NCBI GenBank assembly: GCA_022841505.1
Contig: JALHRK010000008.1
Span: 1-46,080 of the forward strand
DNA: 46,080 bases
Reading direction: 5' to 3'
Source: Saprospiraceae bacterium
GTDB taxonomy: Bacteria > Bacteroidota > Bacteroidia > Chitinophagales > Saprospiraceae
Shown here: positions 31,531-39,790 of the stretch, in pieces
Numbering within the stretch: position 1 is the stretch's first letter
How the letters are laid out: the number at the start of each line of letters is the position of its first letter
Program-made: the position numbers and the translations under genes
Notes under the pieces: generated by a model
What the model saw: only the letters and a program-made list of their open reading frames with translations
What the model was told of the DNA's origin: nothing
Databases searched by the model: none

Positions 31531-32226
31531 TCAGTCTGGCAAAATAATAGCTGTAAAATCGTTCGCAACTGCATGACGGGAGCCTTCGACAGTACCCGGG
31601 CGTACCACCTGAATCGTATGCATCCCCGCCATAGCTGCCGCATCCAATTCTCCAACGACGTCTGATAAAAAAAGAATCGTATCTGGCAGTAATTGAAGGG
31701 ATTCAGCAATGTTTTGGTAAGAATTCGCCTCACGTTTTGGCCCAACAGCTGTATCAAAATGATTGGAAAAACAGGGTGTCAAATCGCCAAAAATGGAATA
31801 TTTGAACAACAGTTGCTGCGCTTCGACAGAGCCGGAAGAATAAATCCCCAACTGCATTCCCAAAGCTTTCCAGCGCGTCAGGATGGGAGGAACATCTTCG
31901 TAAACATGCCCTTTTAACAGGCCATTTTCATAGCCCGCACGCCAAACAGCGCCCTGGATGGCTTTTAGCGCCGGATGCTTCCGGTCTGCTGCTGTCCAGG
32001 CGACCAATTGACCGGCAAGTTCTTCTAAAGTAAAAACGACGCCTGCTTCTTCCCAAAGTGTATTTTGCGCTAAGCGAAGTGGCTCGGCCACCGACAACAA
32101 GGAAGCGCGATCCCGTAAAAAATCGTGAATCCTATCCTTAAAAAAAGGAAAAAGGGTATCGTAAACGAAAGCAACGGACGTGGTGGTGCCTTCAATATCC
32201 ATCAGGATGTATTGTCCTTTAAACAT
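31531..32226 (-). CDS. mtnC: Enolase-phosphatase MtnC (methionine salvage)
   Basis: 231 aa from the ATG at 32226 (MFKGQYILMDIEGTTTSVAFVY). The HAD motif I is DIEGTTT (Asp10). IYSSGSVEAQQLLF is motif II and FLSDVVGELDAA is motif III. It enolises and dephosphorylates 2,3-diketo-5-methylthiopentyl-1-phosphate to give the acireductone used by MtnD. Its start overlaps the mtnD end by 8 bp. Confidence 0.93.
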   Translation of the reverse strand: MFKGQYILMDIEGTTTSVAFVYDTLFPFFKDRIHDFLRDRASLLSVAEPLRLAQNTLWEEAGVVFTLEELAGQLVAWTAADRKHPALKAIQGAVWRAGYENGLLKGHVYEDVPPILTRWKALGMQLGIYSSGSVEAQQLLFKYSIFGDLTPCFSNHFDTAVGPKREANSYQNIAESLQLLPDTILFLSDVVGELDAAAMAGMHTIQVVRPGTVEGSRHAVANDFTAIILPD

Positions 32227-32764
32227 CAGCGATGGTGGGTTGATAAACCTGATCAATGCCTGATTCGGTGTAGTGCGGTACCCAGCCAGACTGATCAATG
32301 AACATGCGAATCGTTTTCACAGCAGGGTTTTTCTGGCCCGCATCAAACCAATGGCGGGTATGGGCAGGTACGGAAATCAGATCGCCCGCTTCGCATAAGA
32401 CATTAAAAACGGGGTCGCTCCCATTGTCTAAATTAAACCAAAAATAGCCTTTGCCAGCTACAAAAAATCGGACTTCATCTTCTGTATGCCGGTGTTCGCT
32501 GAGGAATTTATTGCGCAAAGCTTCATAATTCGGCGTCGTGGAATTGATGTTGATTACATCGGCGACCTGGTAACCGTTTTTTTGCATAAACGGCTGCAAA
32601 ACATACGCATAAGCATTCAATACTGCGTCCTGGTCTGCATCTTCCGGAAGATTTTCTTTTGCCTCCCATTGATCGAACCAAATGCCACGCGTATTGAGAA
32701 AGGTGCGGATTTCAGCGACATCGGCAGTGCTGAATTGTTGATCGGGTATGTTGAGAACAGCCAT
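32219..32764 (-). CDS. mtnD: Acireductone dioxygenase MtnD
   Basis: 181 aa from the ATG at 32764. The cupin metal ligands are H91, H93 and E97 in SEHRHTEDEVRFFV and H135 in VPAHTRHWF. With Fe it would give the keto acid precursor of methionine plus formate; with Ni it would give an off-pathway product. The gene is preceded by mtnB with a 78-bp gap and overlaps mtnC by 8 bp. Confidence 0.93.
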   Translation of the reverse strand: MAVLNIPDQQFSTADVAEIRTFLNTRGIWFDQWEAKENLPEDADQDAVLNAYAYVLQPFMQKNGYQVADVININSTTPNYEALRNKFLSEHRHTEDEVRFFVAGKGYFWFNLDNGSDPVFNVLCEAGDLISVPAHTRHWFDAGQKNPAVKTIRMFIDQSGWVPHYTESGIDQVYQPTIADV

Positions 32765-32842
32765 AATCACAGATTTATTCAGACAAAACTCGTGCATTTA
32801 ACTTCATCTGTGCTACAAGTCAGGTTAATTCTACATTAAGAT

Positions 32843-33460
32843 TCAACGCCTGCTTTCAATCTGGTTCAGGCATTCAAAAAGAAATTCAAAGCTTTCAATG
32901 TGCCGTTTGGCCTCCGCAATGCTGCTTCCCCAGGCGTAAAGGCCATGGCCGGCAAGCAGAAAACCGGGGGTTTCAGGATACGCTGCGAGCCGGCCTCTGA
33001 CTTCCAAGCTCAGCGCGGCAATATCCTGTGCATTTTCAAATACGGGTATCCAAACCTCCGCTTCGTGCGTCGTGATGCCCTGAAGCCCTTTCAACAACTC
33101 AAAACCGGTTATTTTCACAGCCTCCTCATTTCGGTGTATCCAGGAAAAAACAGTGTTTGCAACGGAATGCGTATGCAAAATTGCATTTACTTCGGGCCGC
33201 TCATAAAGCAAGGTATGCAGCAAGGTTTCAGCAGATGGCCGCAGGTGCCGGTAGGCTTCAAGGGGTTGCCCCTGCGCATCAATGACCATAAAATCCTCTA
33301 CCCTAAATGCGCCTTTGTCCACCCCGGAACGCGAAATCGTGTACGTATCCGATTCAGGAACGGGGTTCCGGAAAGAATAATTGGTACTGGTAGCCGGCGC
33401 CCAGCCTTTGGCGTGAAACCAGTGGATGACGGCTAAGAGGTCTTGCTGGAGGGAATGAGT
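32843..33460 (-). CDS. mtnB: Methylthioribulose-1-phosphate dehydratase MtnB
   Basis: About 205 aa if the GTG at 33460 is used; TTG codons at 33484 and 33508 are in frame and no ATG exists near the start. It is a class II aldolase fold with GWAPATSTNYSFR, zinc ligands in ILHTHSVANTVFSW and LAGHGLYAWG, and GITTHEAEVWIP. It dehydrates MTRu-1-P to a diketone, the substrate of MtnC. In this window mtnA and mtnK are absent, so they must lie elsewhere. It follows the TonB receptor gene after a hairpin. Confidence 0.9.
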   Translation of the reverse strand, partial: THSLQQDLLAVIHWFHAKGWAPATSTNYSFRNPVPESDTYTISRSGVDKGAFRVEDFMVIDAQGQPLEAYRHLRPSAETLLHTLLYERPEVNAILHTHSVANTVFSWIHRNEEAVKITGFELLKGLQGITTHEAEVWIPVFENAQDIAALSLEVRGRLAAYPETPGFLLAGHGLYAWGSSIAEAKRHIESFEFLFECLNQIESRR

Positions 33461-33536
33461 CACGAAAAGGATATTTTTCGTCAAATTTATTTTATTCTCG
33501 TCACTCAAATCAATTTTTTGCGTCGCGGACTGGATC

Positions 33537-33580: not shown

Positions 33581-36142
33581 TTAAAAAGTATAGCGCAACG
33601 TCACCCCATAAGTCCGCGGATCGCCAAGCACGCCGGCATAATGCCCGGCATTGCCTGCACCCGGCAACAATTGCTCAAAATAATCCTGATCCAACAAGTT
33701 GCGCGCCCACAGGAATAAGGAAATTCCTTCTGCGGCTTTAAAGCCTGCCCGGGCGTTCAGTAAAGCATACCCGTCAACCACTAAATACTTTGATGGAGAA
33801 GGACTTGAAGAGAACTCAGAGCGATAATAAGTATCGAATGCGATGAAAAAATCGGAAGGTTTGCCCAAAAACTTGCCTGGCAAAGCAACCTCGCCGCCAA
33901 AAGAGAAGGCCCATTTGGAAATACCCGGCAAATCGCCACCCGACACGTCCTTAAAAGCGACCTGAACGCCGTCCACCTGCCTGCCGGTCTCTTCAAGCGG
34001 GAGCGGCGCATTGGTGAATGAAACGTATTTGCCTTCCGTGTAGGCAAGCGAGCCGTAAAGAGAGAGGTATTTTTTGAATTTCAAATTACCATCCAATTCA
34101 ACCCCGCGCACCCGCACTTTTTCTGCATTGGCGAGATAGCCGCGATTTATACCCAATTCAGGGGATTGAACCTGCGTCTGGTAGTCCTCAATATCTGTAT
34201 TGTACACAACAAGGTTCAGCGTGGAGTTTTGAGTAGGCGTTGTCTTCACGCCAATTTCAAAGTGGTTAACGGACTCCGGTTTGATCACAGCCAATTCCAG
34301 AATCGGAGCGCCGCTGGCAGCAGGCAAGCCGCCGAGGTTGAGGCCGACCGGTTTGAAACCGGTTGAATACGTCACAAAAGTATTCACGCGCCTGGCTGCT
34401 TTGAAAGCCAGCGTTAACTGTCCTGAAAAGTTGGTATCGTCAATATTCGCCTGGAAAGCCTGATTGGTGTAAACCGCATTTTTCAACGCAATGAGTGCAG
34501 GATCGGTTGTCTCCAAACCACCGTAGGTTTCCCGTTTGAAGTCTACTTCTTTGTCATCGTAGTTGAATCGAAGACCGGGCAAGAGACTTAAACGATCTGT
34601 GATCACCCAGTCAAGTTGGCCAAAAACTGCCCCGCTGAAGGTGTTGAGATTTTGTGTTGTTCTGATTCCATATCCTTCAAAAAGGCCAGGCGTCTGCCAC
34701 AGCGGGCTGGTAGAACTTTGTGAAAAACGCCATTGGGCACTGCCAGATTCTTCAATGTGAACCGGGTCTGATTTGAGGTTCTGACCAAAAGCGAAGACCC
34801 CAAAAACACCACTCAGCCGGGAAGAAAAAGTGCCGGCCCAGCGAATTTCCTGCGACCATTGACGGTGCTTTGAAGTGGCCTGCGACAATGCAAGCGCCTG
34901 GAGTCCGGTGAAATCCCGGTCGTTAGAAGGATCCCAATCCCAATAGCGCCAGGCTGAGGTAGAAGTCAGCGTGCCTGCGCCGAGGCTAAAATCCGCATTG
35001 ACCGAAACGCCGCCGAGGTCCTGACCTGAGCGCCACGGCGTGTCGTGGTCAATGAGCCGGTCAAACGGGTCGCGGCTTGGCAGCGTGTAGTTGAGGTCGG
35101 CAATGATCCGTTCAAACTGCCGGTATTCGGCGCGCAGGGTGGGCGCTACGCCCGCAATTACCTGCGCATAGCCGTCGGGGCGCTGGCGGGTTGCGTCTGC
35201 TGCAACCAGGATATTGATATTTTCTGAGGGCTTGAACAACAACTGCCCCCTAATACCGAGGTTGTTGAGGGTATTCACGTGTTTCTGCGTGGCAACATTG
35301 TAAATCAAGCCATCGCGCTGGGTACCGGAAAAGGACACCCGAGCGGCAAACTTTTTGCCTAGGGGCCCGGTAATGGAGCTTTTAGCCTGGATGTATCCAT
35401 AATTGCCATAGCTTAGCTCAAAGTCCGCGCCGGGCGTAAAACTCGGCTTGCGGGTCGTCACGTTGAAAGTGCCAGCGGTGGTGTTTTTACCAAACAGCGT
35501 TCCCTGCGGACCGCGCAATACCTCTATCTGCTCCACGTCAATGAAATCAAGCGTTGTTGCTGCAGGGCGCGCAAAATAAACGCCGTCAACATAGAATCCA
35601 ACGCCCGGGTCAATGCCGTCATTGGTCAACCCAAATGTCGTGCCCAATCCCCGGATGCTGAGTCCGGTATTGCGTGGATTGGACGAATAGAGCTGAACCG
35701 AAGGAATCAACTCCTTCAACCGGTTCACGTTGAAAGCCCCGGTCTCGGCAACGAGCGCGCCACCCAACACGGTGATCGGAATCGGAACATCCTGAACCGC
35801 TTCTTTGCGGCGTCGGGAAGTGACAATGATTTCGTCAAGGATTGTGGCATTGGCTAAGATCACTTCAACGGCAGCCTGCGGTTCCTTTGCTAAGTAGATT
35901 TTTGCTGCTTCATAACCCACGTAACTTACTTCAAGGGTTAACGGAAATTTCAACTGACCAGCCAACTCAAACGCCCCATTCTCATCGGTGATGGCAAAGA
36001 TGGCGGTGCCGGTTATGTTCACCGTTGCGCCAACGATGTTTTCACCTTGTTCGTCTTTGACCAGACCCGAAATAACGCGCTGTGCGTATGTTGCGCCTGC
36101 CCAGAGAAAAATAGATAAAGCGATAAGTATCAATCGTTTCAT
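33581..36142 (-). CDS. TonB-dependent outer-membrane receptor (CarboxypepD_reg type)
   Basis: 853 aa. A signal peptide (to about residue 20) precedes a CarboxypepD_reg-like domain (residues 22-105, GLVKDEQGENIVGATVNITG) and a plug (about 110-230, RRKEAVQDVPIPITVLGG, IDVEQIEVLRGPQGTLFGKNTTAG). A long beta-barrel ends with the aromatic LRYTF. The ligand cannot be told from sequence and there is no SusD-like partner next to it. A leader of about 320 nt with a poly-Cys ORF precedes it, and methionine-salvage genes follow, so a sulfur-containing substrate is a reasonable guess (inference). Confidence 0.93.
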   Translation of the reverse strand: MKRLILIALSIFLWAGATYAQRVISGLVKDEQGENIVGATVNITGTAIFAITDENGAFELAGQLKFPLTLEVSYVGYEAAKIYLAKEPQAAVEVILANATILDEIIVTSRRRKEAVQDVPIPITVLGGALVAETGAFNVNRLKELIPSVQLYSSNPRNTGLSIRGLGTTFGLTNDGIDPGVGFYVDGVYFARPAATTLDFIDVEQIEVLRGPQGTLFGKNTTAGTFNVTTRKPSFTPGADFELSYGNYGYIQAKSSITGPLGKKFAARVSFSGTQRDGLIYNVATQKHVNTLNNLGIRGQLLFKPSENINILVAADATRQRPDGYAQVIAGVAPTLRAEYRQFERIIADLNYTLPSRDPFDRLIDHDTPWRSGQDLGGVSVNADFSLGAGTLTSTSAWRYWDWDPSNDRDFTGLQALALSQATSKHRQWSQEIRWAGTFSSRLSGVFGVFAFGQNLKSDPVHIEESGSAQWRFSQSSTSPLWQTPGLFEGYGIRTTQNLNTFSGAVFGQLDWVITDRLSLLPGLRFNYDDKEVDFKRETYGGLETTDPALIALKNAVYTNQAFQANIDDTNFSGQLTLAFKAARRVNTFVTYSTGFKPVGLNLGGLPAASGAPILELAVIKPESVNHFEIGVKTTPTQNSTLNLVVYNTDIEDYQTQVQSPELGINRGYLANAEKVRVRGVELDGNLKFKKYLSLYGSLAYTEGKYVSFTNAPLPLEETGRQVDGVQVAFKDVSGGDLPGISKWAFSFGGEVALPGKFLGKPSDFFIAFDTYYRSEFSSSPSPSKYLVVDGYALLNARAGFKAAEGISLFLWARNLLDQDYFEQLLPGAGNAGHYAGVLGDPRTYGVTLRYTF

Positions 36143-36239
36143 GATTGAAAATTTTTAAAGTTTGCAAAAGATGTTGAGGAAGAATTAGAGCGCTCTGATA
36201 TACTGCGGCATGAGATACCCGATCAGAATAAAGCAGTTG

Positions 36240-36347
36240 TTAGCAACAACAGCAACAACAACGGGAGGTGGATGAAGCTTGGGAGGAATGGCTGGCAAAA
36301 GATGCTTTAAACAGCACAGGACGCCTGAAATTCAAGTGCTTTTTCAT
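36240..36347 (-). CDS. Poly-cysteine leader peptide upstream of the TonB receptor (35 aa)
   Basis: A short ORF begins with ATG at 36347 (MKKHLNFRRPVLFKAS), passes through a Ser-rich stretch (HSSQASSTSR) and ends in six consecutive Cys codons (TGT, TGT, TGC, TGT, TGT, TGC) directly followed by TAA. It lies 97 bp upstream of the receptor ATG, and its first codon would be about 110 nt after the predicted transcription start. Poly-Cys leader ORFs that sense cysteine availability by ribosome stalling are, from memory, known in mycobacteria. Here it would regulate the sulfur block (inference). Coding status is not proven, but the run of Cys codons ending exactly at the stop is hard to explain otherwise. 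Confidence 0.7.
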   Translation of the reverse strand: MKKHLNFRRPVLFKASFASHSSQASSTSRCCCCCC

Positions 36348-36405
36348 AAGAAATTGGTTTACTTAAACAAAATATATAAAAAAAGCTCGTTATAAATTTG
36401 AGAAT

Positions 36406-36440
36406 CACACCAATGGAGGTAATCGTGGATACCAGGTGTG
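36406..36440 (-). promoter_or_regulatory. Stem-loop in the receptor leader, upstream of the poly-Cys ORF
   Basis: On the minus strand CACACC-T-GGTA, an 8-nt loop, then TACC and, after TCCATT, GGTGTG. Two nested short stems suggest RNA structure early in the leader. Confidence 0.4.
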
Positions 36441-36464
36441 TGGTGGTACTGTGGTTAGGTCTCA

Positions 36465-36472
36465 CAAAGATA
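36465..36472 (-). promoter_or_regulatory. -7 element TATCTTTG for the leader and TonB receptor
   Basis: The sequence on the minus strand matches TAnnTTTG exactly. The next coding start for the receptor is at 36142, so the leader would be about 320 nt. No clear -33 was found. Confidence 0.5.
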
Positions 36473-36517
36473 AGGGCTTTTTTTTAAAATTATACATATT
36501 CTACCAAAAAAGTATAA

Positions 36518-39283: not shown

Positions 39284-39688
39284 TTATATCAAATCAGCAA
39301 CCGTTGTGCGCTCCAGAACATCCAACATTTGATCCCTGACTTCCAACAACGCACTTCGTATTTTACAGGCTGCTTCATCCGGGCAATCTTCACAACGCTC
39401 GTAGAAATTTTTTGAAACACAGGGGATCAGTGCGATAGGGCCATCTATGAGGCGGTAAACTTCGGCCAGCGATACCTCATCCGGCTTTTTCATCAAATAA
39501 TACCCGCCTGTGTTGCCCTGCCGGCTGTTCAGGATATGCCCTTTTTTTAATTCCAAAAGGATCTGTTCTAAAAATTTTTTCGGAATGCCTGCCTTTTCAG
39601 CAATTTCGCGGGTGATTACCTGCCCTCCCTCCTTTTTCGCGATGTAGATCAGTGCCTTCAACGCGTATTTCATTTTCTTCGAAATCAT
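39284..39688 (-). CDS. Rrf2-family transcriptional regulator
   Basis: 134 aa from the ATG at 39688 (MISKKMKYALKALIYIAKKEGG). It has the winged HTH (TREIAEKAGIPKKFLEQILLELKKG) and wing (SRQGNTGGYYLMKKPDEVSL). Cysteines C90, C99, C102 and C108 (LIPCVSKNFYERCEDCPDEAACK) resemble the cluster-binding set of IscR-like members. Family regulators respond to Fe-S status, nitric oxide or cysteine (CymR). As first gene before the YeiH-type transporter, it is likely the local sulfur or redox regulator (inference). Confidence 0.9.
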   Translation of the reverse strand: MISKKMKYALKALIYIAKKEGGQVITREIAEKAGIPKKFLEQILLELKKGHILNSRQGNTGGYYLMKKPDEVSLAEVYRLIDGPIALIPCVSKNFYERCEDCPDEAACKIRSALLEVRDQMLDVLERTTVADLI

Positions 39689-39746
39689 TGCTTCTGTCCG
39701 GCGTTTTTGCATCCTGCCAGAACGGTAAAAGTAGTTACTTTTTGAT

Positions 39747-39790
39747 AAAAAATCGAAAGCCCTCCGATTTGACACCGAAGGGCTTTCGAT
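39747..39790 (-). terminator. Terminator of the thioesterase gene
   Basis: The stem ATCGAAAGCCCT (39752-39763) pairs with AGGGCTTTCGAT (39779-39790). On the minus strand it is followed by TTTTTTATC. It separates the thioesterase from the Rrf2 operon. Confidence 0.8.

Follow-up and report, generated by a model that had tools for sequence, protein, structure and literature searches.

A leader open reading frame with six terminal cysteine codons precedes a TonB-dependent receptor gene of a Saprospiraceae bacterium: a probable cysteine-codon attenuator in Bacteroidota

What is a short open reading frame (ORF) that ends in six consecutive cysteine codons doing in front of the gene for an outer-membrane receptor? 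The question is posed by a stretch of 46,080 nucleotides (nt) from a Saprospiraceae bacterium (contig JALHRK010000008.1, positions 1 to 46,080; hereafter “the window”), in which a TonB-dependent receptor gene on the minus strand has such an upstream ORF (uORF) in its leader. The original prediction took the arrangement for an attenuator that measures charged Cys-tRNA. Our analysis makes it very probable that the uORF encodes the leader peptide of a ribosome-mediated attenuator whose Cys codons sense charged Cys-tRNA and, as part of the same reading and with the same confidence, that it belongs to a set of leaders heading cysteine and sulfur genes in its own genome and in related Bacteroidota. 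Shortage of cysteine at the ribosome is probably what switches sulfur genes on in these bacteria. The elements of the receptor gene and its leader are the following.

33581 to 36142, minus strand: TonB-dependent receptor of 853 amino acids (PF00593, PF07715 and PF13715 above cut-off), the proposed regulated gene.
36143 to 36239, minus strand: spacer of 97 nt from the uORF stop to the receptor ATG, without an intrinsic terminator in the terminator search.
36233 to 36253, minus strand: short, weak hairpin, read from the sequence, formed by the last Cys codons and a few bases past the stop.
36240 to 36347, minus strand: the uORF, 35 codons, encoding MKKHLNFRRPVLFKASFASHSSQASSTSRCCCCCC; kept in the congener L093 with seven Cys codons.
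36243 to 36260, minus strand: six consecutive Cys codons directly before TAA, the proposed sensor of charged Cys-tRNA.
36266 to 36325, minus strand: C-rich, G-poor body of the uORF (about 35% C, 17% G), by composition a candidate Rho loading site.
36406 to 36440, minus strand: nested stem-loop, predicted by folding, in the leader's 5' part.
36465 to 36472, minus strand: TATCTTTG, a candidate -7 box of the TAnnTTTG type; L093 has the same box.
36501 to 36515, no strand assigned: ATACTTTTTTGGTAG, a copy of a CTAN9TAG palindrome that is one base off, a candidate operator; L093 has the strict form CTACTTTTTTGGTAG.

Reading of the sequence bears out the ORF as first described: it begins with an ATG at 36347, and its six Cys codons (36260-36243) and TAA (36242-36240) close it 97 nt ahead of the receptor's ATG (36142). 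The box upstream agrees with TAnnTTTG, given as the -7 consensus for a flavobacterium in the available part of PMC9723704. If transcription starts 5-7 nt past this box, the leader would be about 316-318 nt long, in agreement with the roughly 320 nt first proposed. The uORF is not leaderless, its ATG lying 117 nt past the last base of the candidate box and about 110 nt after the presumed start. The nested stem-loop fared less well. It is indeed predicted at 36440-36406, and folding also predicts a nested hairpin at the equivalent place in L093, but sequence and arms differ there, so that this element is not firmly established. The window contains no match to an Rfam family, T-box or other known riboswitch, at the gathering threshold.

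The first line of evidence is the conservation of the codons themselves. L093, which is of the same genus and has a receptor 94% identical to that in the window, carries a uORF of equal length, MKKHLYFRPPVLKNAPSVSHSLYSVSSSCCCCCCC, with seven Cys codons. In this comparison, which for the window type of uORF comprises two sequences, nt identity is 31/33 at the start, 34/51 in the middle and 23/24 at the end, where the last six Cys codons and the stop agree at 21 of 21 nt; the receptor genes are 88% identical. While the body of the uORF drifts, its Cys codons persist.

The second is the company that such ORFs keep within the same genome. Five TGY codons in a row (Y, C or T) occur in its 7.5 Mb as 28 matches at 19 places, 16 of which are inside or opposite long open frames. 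The other three, outside open frames of at least 120 codons (measured from stop to stop), all head sulfur loci: the receptor, cysH-cysD-cysN and metY. The ORF before cysH-cysD-cysN, MNSTNISFMACCCCCCTARLHRSGCNAILYEYWS (L193:2495-2599), begins 4 nt past a TAAGTTTG box. That before metY (L219:1159-2481; 663 bits to TIGR01326) has 40 codons, ends in MMCCCCCCCC and lies 12 nt downstream of an S-adenosylmethionine (SAM) riboswitch (L222:733-857; 85 bits); L222:733-992, on contig C486, thereby holds two sulfur sensors in tandem. Shorter runs were found mostly in frames inside or opposite genes. Four TGY codons followed by a stop lay outside long frames in 3 of 11 cases, one of them a five-residue frame without ATG at a contig edge, and three TGY codons in one of 30 (30 of 132 matches were examined). 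As the filter cuts by long frame, a real leader under a spurious long frame would be lost.

Related genomes extend the set. The search for five TGY codons in six of them, with a long-frame limit of 110 codons, gave 69 regions and 71 run-containing frames; with two known receptor leaders set aside, six frames were outside long open frames. Five of these head cysH (L266), cysS (L272), metY (L279), a cysteine synthase gene (L283) and a NirA/sulfite-reductase-like gene (L285); the first four names come from N-terminal fragments that score below curated whole-protein cut-offs, the last from a partial protein at 175 bits. The relative genome G544 had no such poly-Cys ORF. At the level of the order, at least four Cys in six codons were found upstream of metY at 5 of 14 loci (those above cut-off among 30; the window's own genome is one of the five), upstream of cysS at 1 of 30 (3 of 30 at a lower threshold) and upstream of the control gene hisS at none of 30; the cysS and hisS loci were the best 30 from 58 genomes with a match each, and gene starts were picked by a simple rule. 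In several leaders (L323, L324, L279 and L219, all before metY, and L285) two Met codons come immediately or almost immediately ahead of the Cys run. Such leaders may sense the supply of methionine as well as that of cysteine.

The receptor itself was followed through 80 loci from 197 relatives and, in further sampling, through 9 of 148 matching genomes and then 26 of 395, the window's own genome being among the 9 and among the 26. The first scans demanded three or more consecutive Cys and missed the Flavobacterium leaders, because the tail of these is a mixture of Met and Cys. A leader ORF is present at each of the 45 loci labelled Flavobacterium, Flavobacteriaceae or [Flexibacter], nearly always with a Met/Cys tail, usually MMCMCW or MCMC, the former comparable to the Met-Met-Cys runs just described; being closely related, these loci are not independent of one another. 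In the 44 that were measured (L091 being the 45th), the uORF has 34-38 codons and stops 45-52 nt before the receptor ATG, with TAA in 29, TAG in 8 and TGA in 7; two Cys codons are present in 31, three in 11, four in one and one in one. The pattern ATGTGYATGTGYTRR occurs once per genome in six of eight genomes, each time at the receptor, and its reversed control gave none.

Outside this group, too, Cys-rich short ORFs upstream of the receptor exceed what chance would give. Among 55 non-Flavobacterium leaders, at least three Cys in six codons are found in 11 on the sense strand and in one on the antisense strand (shuffle mean 0.75, maximum 4, in 200 shuffles); for at least four Cys in six codons the counts are 5 and 0, and the shuffles give 0.035. 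The uORFs of different families are mutually unrelated (seven Cys in L153, RCCCCNSTC in L155, RCCMCS in L159, SCCCCK in L161, RCCCG in L095, RCCCL in L089). The tallies include L041 (MCCIHCHCM), L094 (MQCLISCCFFRRDF) and, for cysS, L319, which may be due to chance. The receptor leaders of L016 and L064 also contain a strong, GC-rich palindromic repeat resembling repetitive extragenic palindromes, GCGTCGGCA...TGCCGACGC, and the one-Cys uORFs near it share the start MKTxxLFLRPYC. In sum, comparison supports the proposed sensing of Cys-tRNA through the codons kept in L093, the independent uORFs of other receptors, the poly-Cys uORFs before sulfur genes and, as detailed below, several terminators.

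How would such a leader work? With charged Cys-tRNA plentiful, a ribosome would pass the Cys codons, reach the stop and leave, and the leader RNA would shut off the downstream genes; with charged Cys-tRNA scarce, it would wait on the Cys codons, and the shut-off would be prevented. In several leaders (cysH of the window's own genome; metY, cysS, the cysteine synthase gene and the reductase gene of relatives) the output would be a classical intrinsic terminator, the competing antiterminator strand starting 5-12 nt past the Cys codons. Of 22 leaders, a script recognizes a terminator in 8, that of L219 being weak; no receptor leader is among the 8. The own cysH leader has a 16-pair intrinsic terminator with a U-run between ORF and cysH. 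When its transcript is cut before the 3' arm of the terminator, folding pairs the post-Cys segment with the 5' arm as a competitor, and this duplex (z -4.8) is matched by none of 500 shuffles (p<0.002). A ribosome held on the Cys codons would free the post-Cys segment, and one that runs on would cover it, as in textbook attenuation. The pairing of terminator arm and post-Cys segment is better than in shuffles (p<0.05) in four of nine leaders, L193 and L266 among them being closely related.

In receptor leaders of the Flavobacterium type, a stem would include the Met/Cys codons themselves as one arm, its other arm lying shortly ahead of the receptor start. The predicted fold has the codons as the 5' arm and a 3' arm that ends about 15 nt short of the receptor ATG; its mean z is -3.1 (35 of 44 below -2), and 93.7% of cells are paired, as against 17-54% when the stem is slid. 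This stem favours a translational output in the group. A hairpin of the Cys codons as a general output was also considered and gave a mixed result, with a mean z of -1.5 over 14 non-Flavobacterium leaders. For the window, the likeliest outputs are Rho-dependent termination and a block of translation initiation. Folding showed no pairing of the uORF with the receptor initiation region in this leader, and Rho-dependent termination is plausible because a C-rich, G-poor stretch precedes the Cys codons. Seliverstov and colleagues propose Rho-dependent termination for mycobacterial cys leaders in the accessible part of their report (PMC1262725).

Several results weigh against our interpretation. Folding around the Cys codons of the window is no better than that of shuffles (z -0.31, obtained over a wider stretch, for which reason we grade the hairpin at 36233-36253 as weak). 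The terminator search found no intrinsic terminator in the window leader, nor in the other seven receptor leaders examined. The antiterminator pairing test was not significant in five of nine leaders, and the Flavobacterium stem shows no compensatory change, with only -1.39 kcal/mol from RNAalifold. Among the 14 non-Flavobacterium leaders, four have a Cys-codon hairpin below z -2, and two of these owe it to a repeat. At the threshold of three Cys, 44 of the 55 non-Flavobacterium receptor orthologues have no uORF. A phylum sample of cysD loci gave a Cys uORF in only 1 of 30, at L188, where MLYLHFKLIKCCCSCLE precedes cysH; leaders of cysHDN are therefore not general. Finally, one of the six ORFs in relatives, L400 (genome G241, contig C15), precedes no known sulfur gene. 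It heads a gene for a 105-amino-acid CarboxypepD-like protein and a PhyH gene; its start coincides with a CTAN9TAG palindrome copy, and upstream of it is the gene for a cysteine desulfurase resembling the cargo of family 2A encapsulins (507 bits, partial).

The surroundings of the receptor gene had been described as sulfur-related, and profile matches agree.

31531 to 32298, minus strand: mtnC-like acireductone synthase (TIGR01691, 231 bits, cut-off 128).
32219 to 32797, minus strand: mtnD-like acireductone dioxygenase (PF03079, 102 bits).
32843 to 33508, minus strand: mtnB, methylthioribulose-1-phosphate dehydratase, the next gene on the same strand (TIGR03328, 213 bits, cut-off 137).
39284 to 39775, minus strand: regulator of the Rrf2 family, the candidate reader of the palindrome (TIGR00738, 113 bits, cut-off 73).

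A YeiH-type transporter is likewise a neighbour (PF03601 above cut-off, NCBIfam TIGR00698 below), and the Rrf2 protein scores 68 bits against the CymR model, below its cut-off of 195. A sulfur role of the receptor itself is suggested by its neighbours, which in the window are mtnB, mtnD and mtnC. A profile search returned no NCBIfam equivalog above cut-off for the receptor, and among solved structures only distant TonB receptor relatives were found, the best being 4epa, the pesticin receptor (E 8.7e-19). Given that cysD, cysN, cysJ and cysI surround the receptor gene in L016 and that homocysteine-synthesis enzymes are encoded near it in L089 and L014, it most likely serves sulfur acquisition.

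Of the explanations that compete with codon reading, the one that survives best, itself very improbable, is that the nascent peptide and not its codons is the sensor, Cys residues binding copper, another metal or a thiol reagent and altering ribosome arrest, as proposed for CruR. Cys and Met are both metal ligands. CruR is encoded by a copper-responsive uORF before the Bordetella TonB receptor gene bfrG and, according to the available part of PMC9426467, is a 145-residue DUF2946 protein with CXXC and RAPP motifs, the CXXC being essential. The uORF of the window matches no Pfam or NCBIfam family, DUF2946 included, and its sequence has no CXXC-RAPP motif pair. Further, Cys spacing varies freely among the leaders (CCCCCC, RCCCL, MCMCW) as the Cys codons stay, and the headed genes, cysH, metY, cysS and cysteine synthase, are not copper genes.

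Less credible again is the idea that an operator of the Rrf2 type regulates the receptor alone, with the uORF as a passenger or a setter of basal translation. The CTAN9TAG palindrome is far more frequent than in shuffles: within 420 nt upstream of the receptor it occurs in 56 of 59 Flavobacterium-type loci (shuffles, 3.9) and in 35 of 55 others (shuffles, 4.8), also where no Cys uORF is seen (for example L096, L097 and L100); in several loci lacking a Cys uORF it is near the gene and leaves little space for a leader. An Rrf2 gene adjoins the receptor gene in L052, L095 and L013, and the Rrf2 regulator probably reads the palindrome, which resembles known Rrf2 sites. An operator by itself nevertheless leaves unexplained why Cys codons survive as the ORF body drifts, and why unrelated poly-Cys ORFs and terminators precede cysH, metY and cysS. 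Two strict copies of the palindrome flank the uORF in L089, L155 and L159 only; L153 has a strict copy downstream of the uORF and an imperfect one upstream. The copy between uORF and receptor start in these loci (in L153 in part) is possibly a second operator or an RNA hairpin.

Fainter still are the prospects that the product itself has a function, for instance as a small Cys-rich peptide that buffers thiols or metals. The in-frame conservation of the ORF in Flavobacterium-type loci speaks for such a peptide, but the bodies are unrelated between families, the ratio of nonsynonymous to synonymous substitution rates (dN/dS) within the Flavobacterium type is near neutral at about 0.64, and the ORFs of the scanned genomes, L400 excepted, are always found in the leaders of sulfur loci. 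That the run is a chance low-complexity TGY repeat may practically be dismissed: most of the 19 places with five TGY codons do coincide with long open frames, but the three that do not all head sulfur loci, the hisS control was empty, and the antisense and shuffle controls in receptor leaders agree.

With codon reading as the preferred explanation, we regard a broader one as reasonably likely, though well short of assured: that Bacteroidota have a regulon of attenuators reading Cys codons, in part Cys and Met codons, in which one input module has been joined repeatedly to varied outputs and stacked on other layers. The outputs would be an intrinsic terminator, a stem over the initiation region and probably Rho; the stacked layers would be the Rrf2-type operator and the SAM riboswitch; and the regulon would cover sulfate reduction, the synthesis of cysteine and homocysteine, Cys-tRNA synthetase and the outer-membrane TonB importer. 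If this is true, the receptor would to our knowledge be the first outer-membrane transporter governed by tRNA charging. The consequences are of several kinds. Bacteroidota would be the third major bacterial group with cysteine-codon attenuation, and an outer-membrane receptor would be tied to cysteine supply. Poly-Cys short ORFs outside genes would serve as a simple search key to sulfur genes, and to the way these are regulated, in genomes that lack annotation. The ORF bodies, which turn over fast around fixed Cys codons, offer a clean example from nature of a peptide maintained for the sake of its codons. Since the receptor leader is present in genetically tractable Flavobacterium species, these ideas can be tested directly.

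Canestrari 2020 is said to describe polycysteine leaderless short ORFs in mycobacteria. The mycobacterial precedent invoked by the original prediction is correct: the portion of Seliverstov 2005 at hand (PMC1262725) describes leader peptides with Cys codons in Actinobacteria, namely before the cys operon of Mycobacterium and P. acnes and before cbs of B. longum. For Bacteroidota, the open-access literature (our scope, subscription papers and supplements lying outside it) yielded no report of Cys-codon attenuation. The available part of PMC9723704 reports signs of leader peptides in amino-acid operons of a flavobacterium, with no Cys leader among those it covers; that of PMC7366714 mentions leader-like short ORFs in Bacteroides; and that of PMC2965389 names no Bacteroidota case of a Cys leader. 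Cys-codon attenuation itself has already been described, in Actinobacteria and Rhodobacterales; its probable occurrence in Bacteroidota would be the new part.

How do the leaders found here compare with these systems? Like those described for Actinobacteria in the part of PMC1262725 referred to, they are short ORFs with a Cys run near the stop in the leader of a sulfur gene, and mycobacterial cys leaders and the receptor leaders share the lack of an intrinsic terminator. They differ in phylum, in heading an outer-membrane TonB receptor and in that the window uORF is not leaderless; further, the other leaders of its genome possess an intrinsic terminator or lie behind a SAM riboswitch. The uORFC-8-2 motif before cysS in Rhodobacterales, a uORF with tandem Cys codons and a U-run terminator, has the same proposed logic in the available part of PMC8632094, but is described there with two Cys codons, one gene and one alphaproteobacterial order, whereas here there are runs of four to eight, several genes and another phylum. 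CruR, as far as the accessible part of PMC9426467 portrays it, resembles the window in being a Cys-containing uORF before a TonB receptor gene, and a Rho-dependent output may be common to both; the window differs in its 35 codons, its Cys run and its sulfur genes. Set beside the attenuators of the trp and his type, the window leader differs in its lack of a terminator, whereas the own cysH leader is alike in its codon run, its antiterminator segment and its intrinsic terminator before the gene. Of the features that mark a Cys-codon leader-peptide attenuator, which also include translation of the ORF and a rise in expression on cysteine limitation, three are found here: a short ORF with tandem Cys codons, a location before sulfur genes, and Cys codons better conserved than the remainder of the ORF, in the window type as in the Flavobacterium type.

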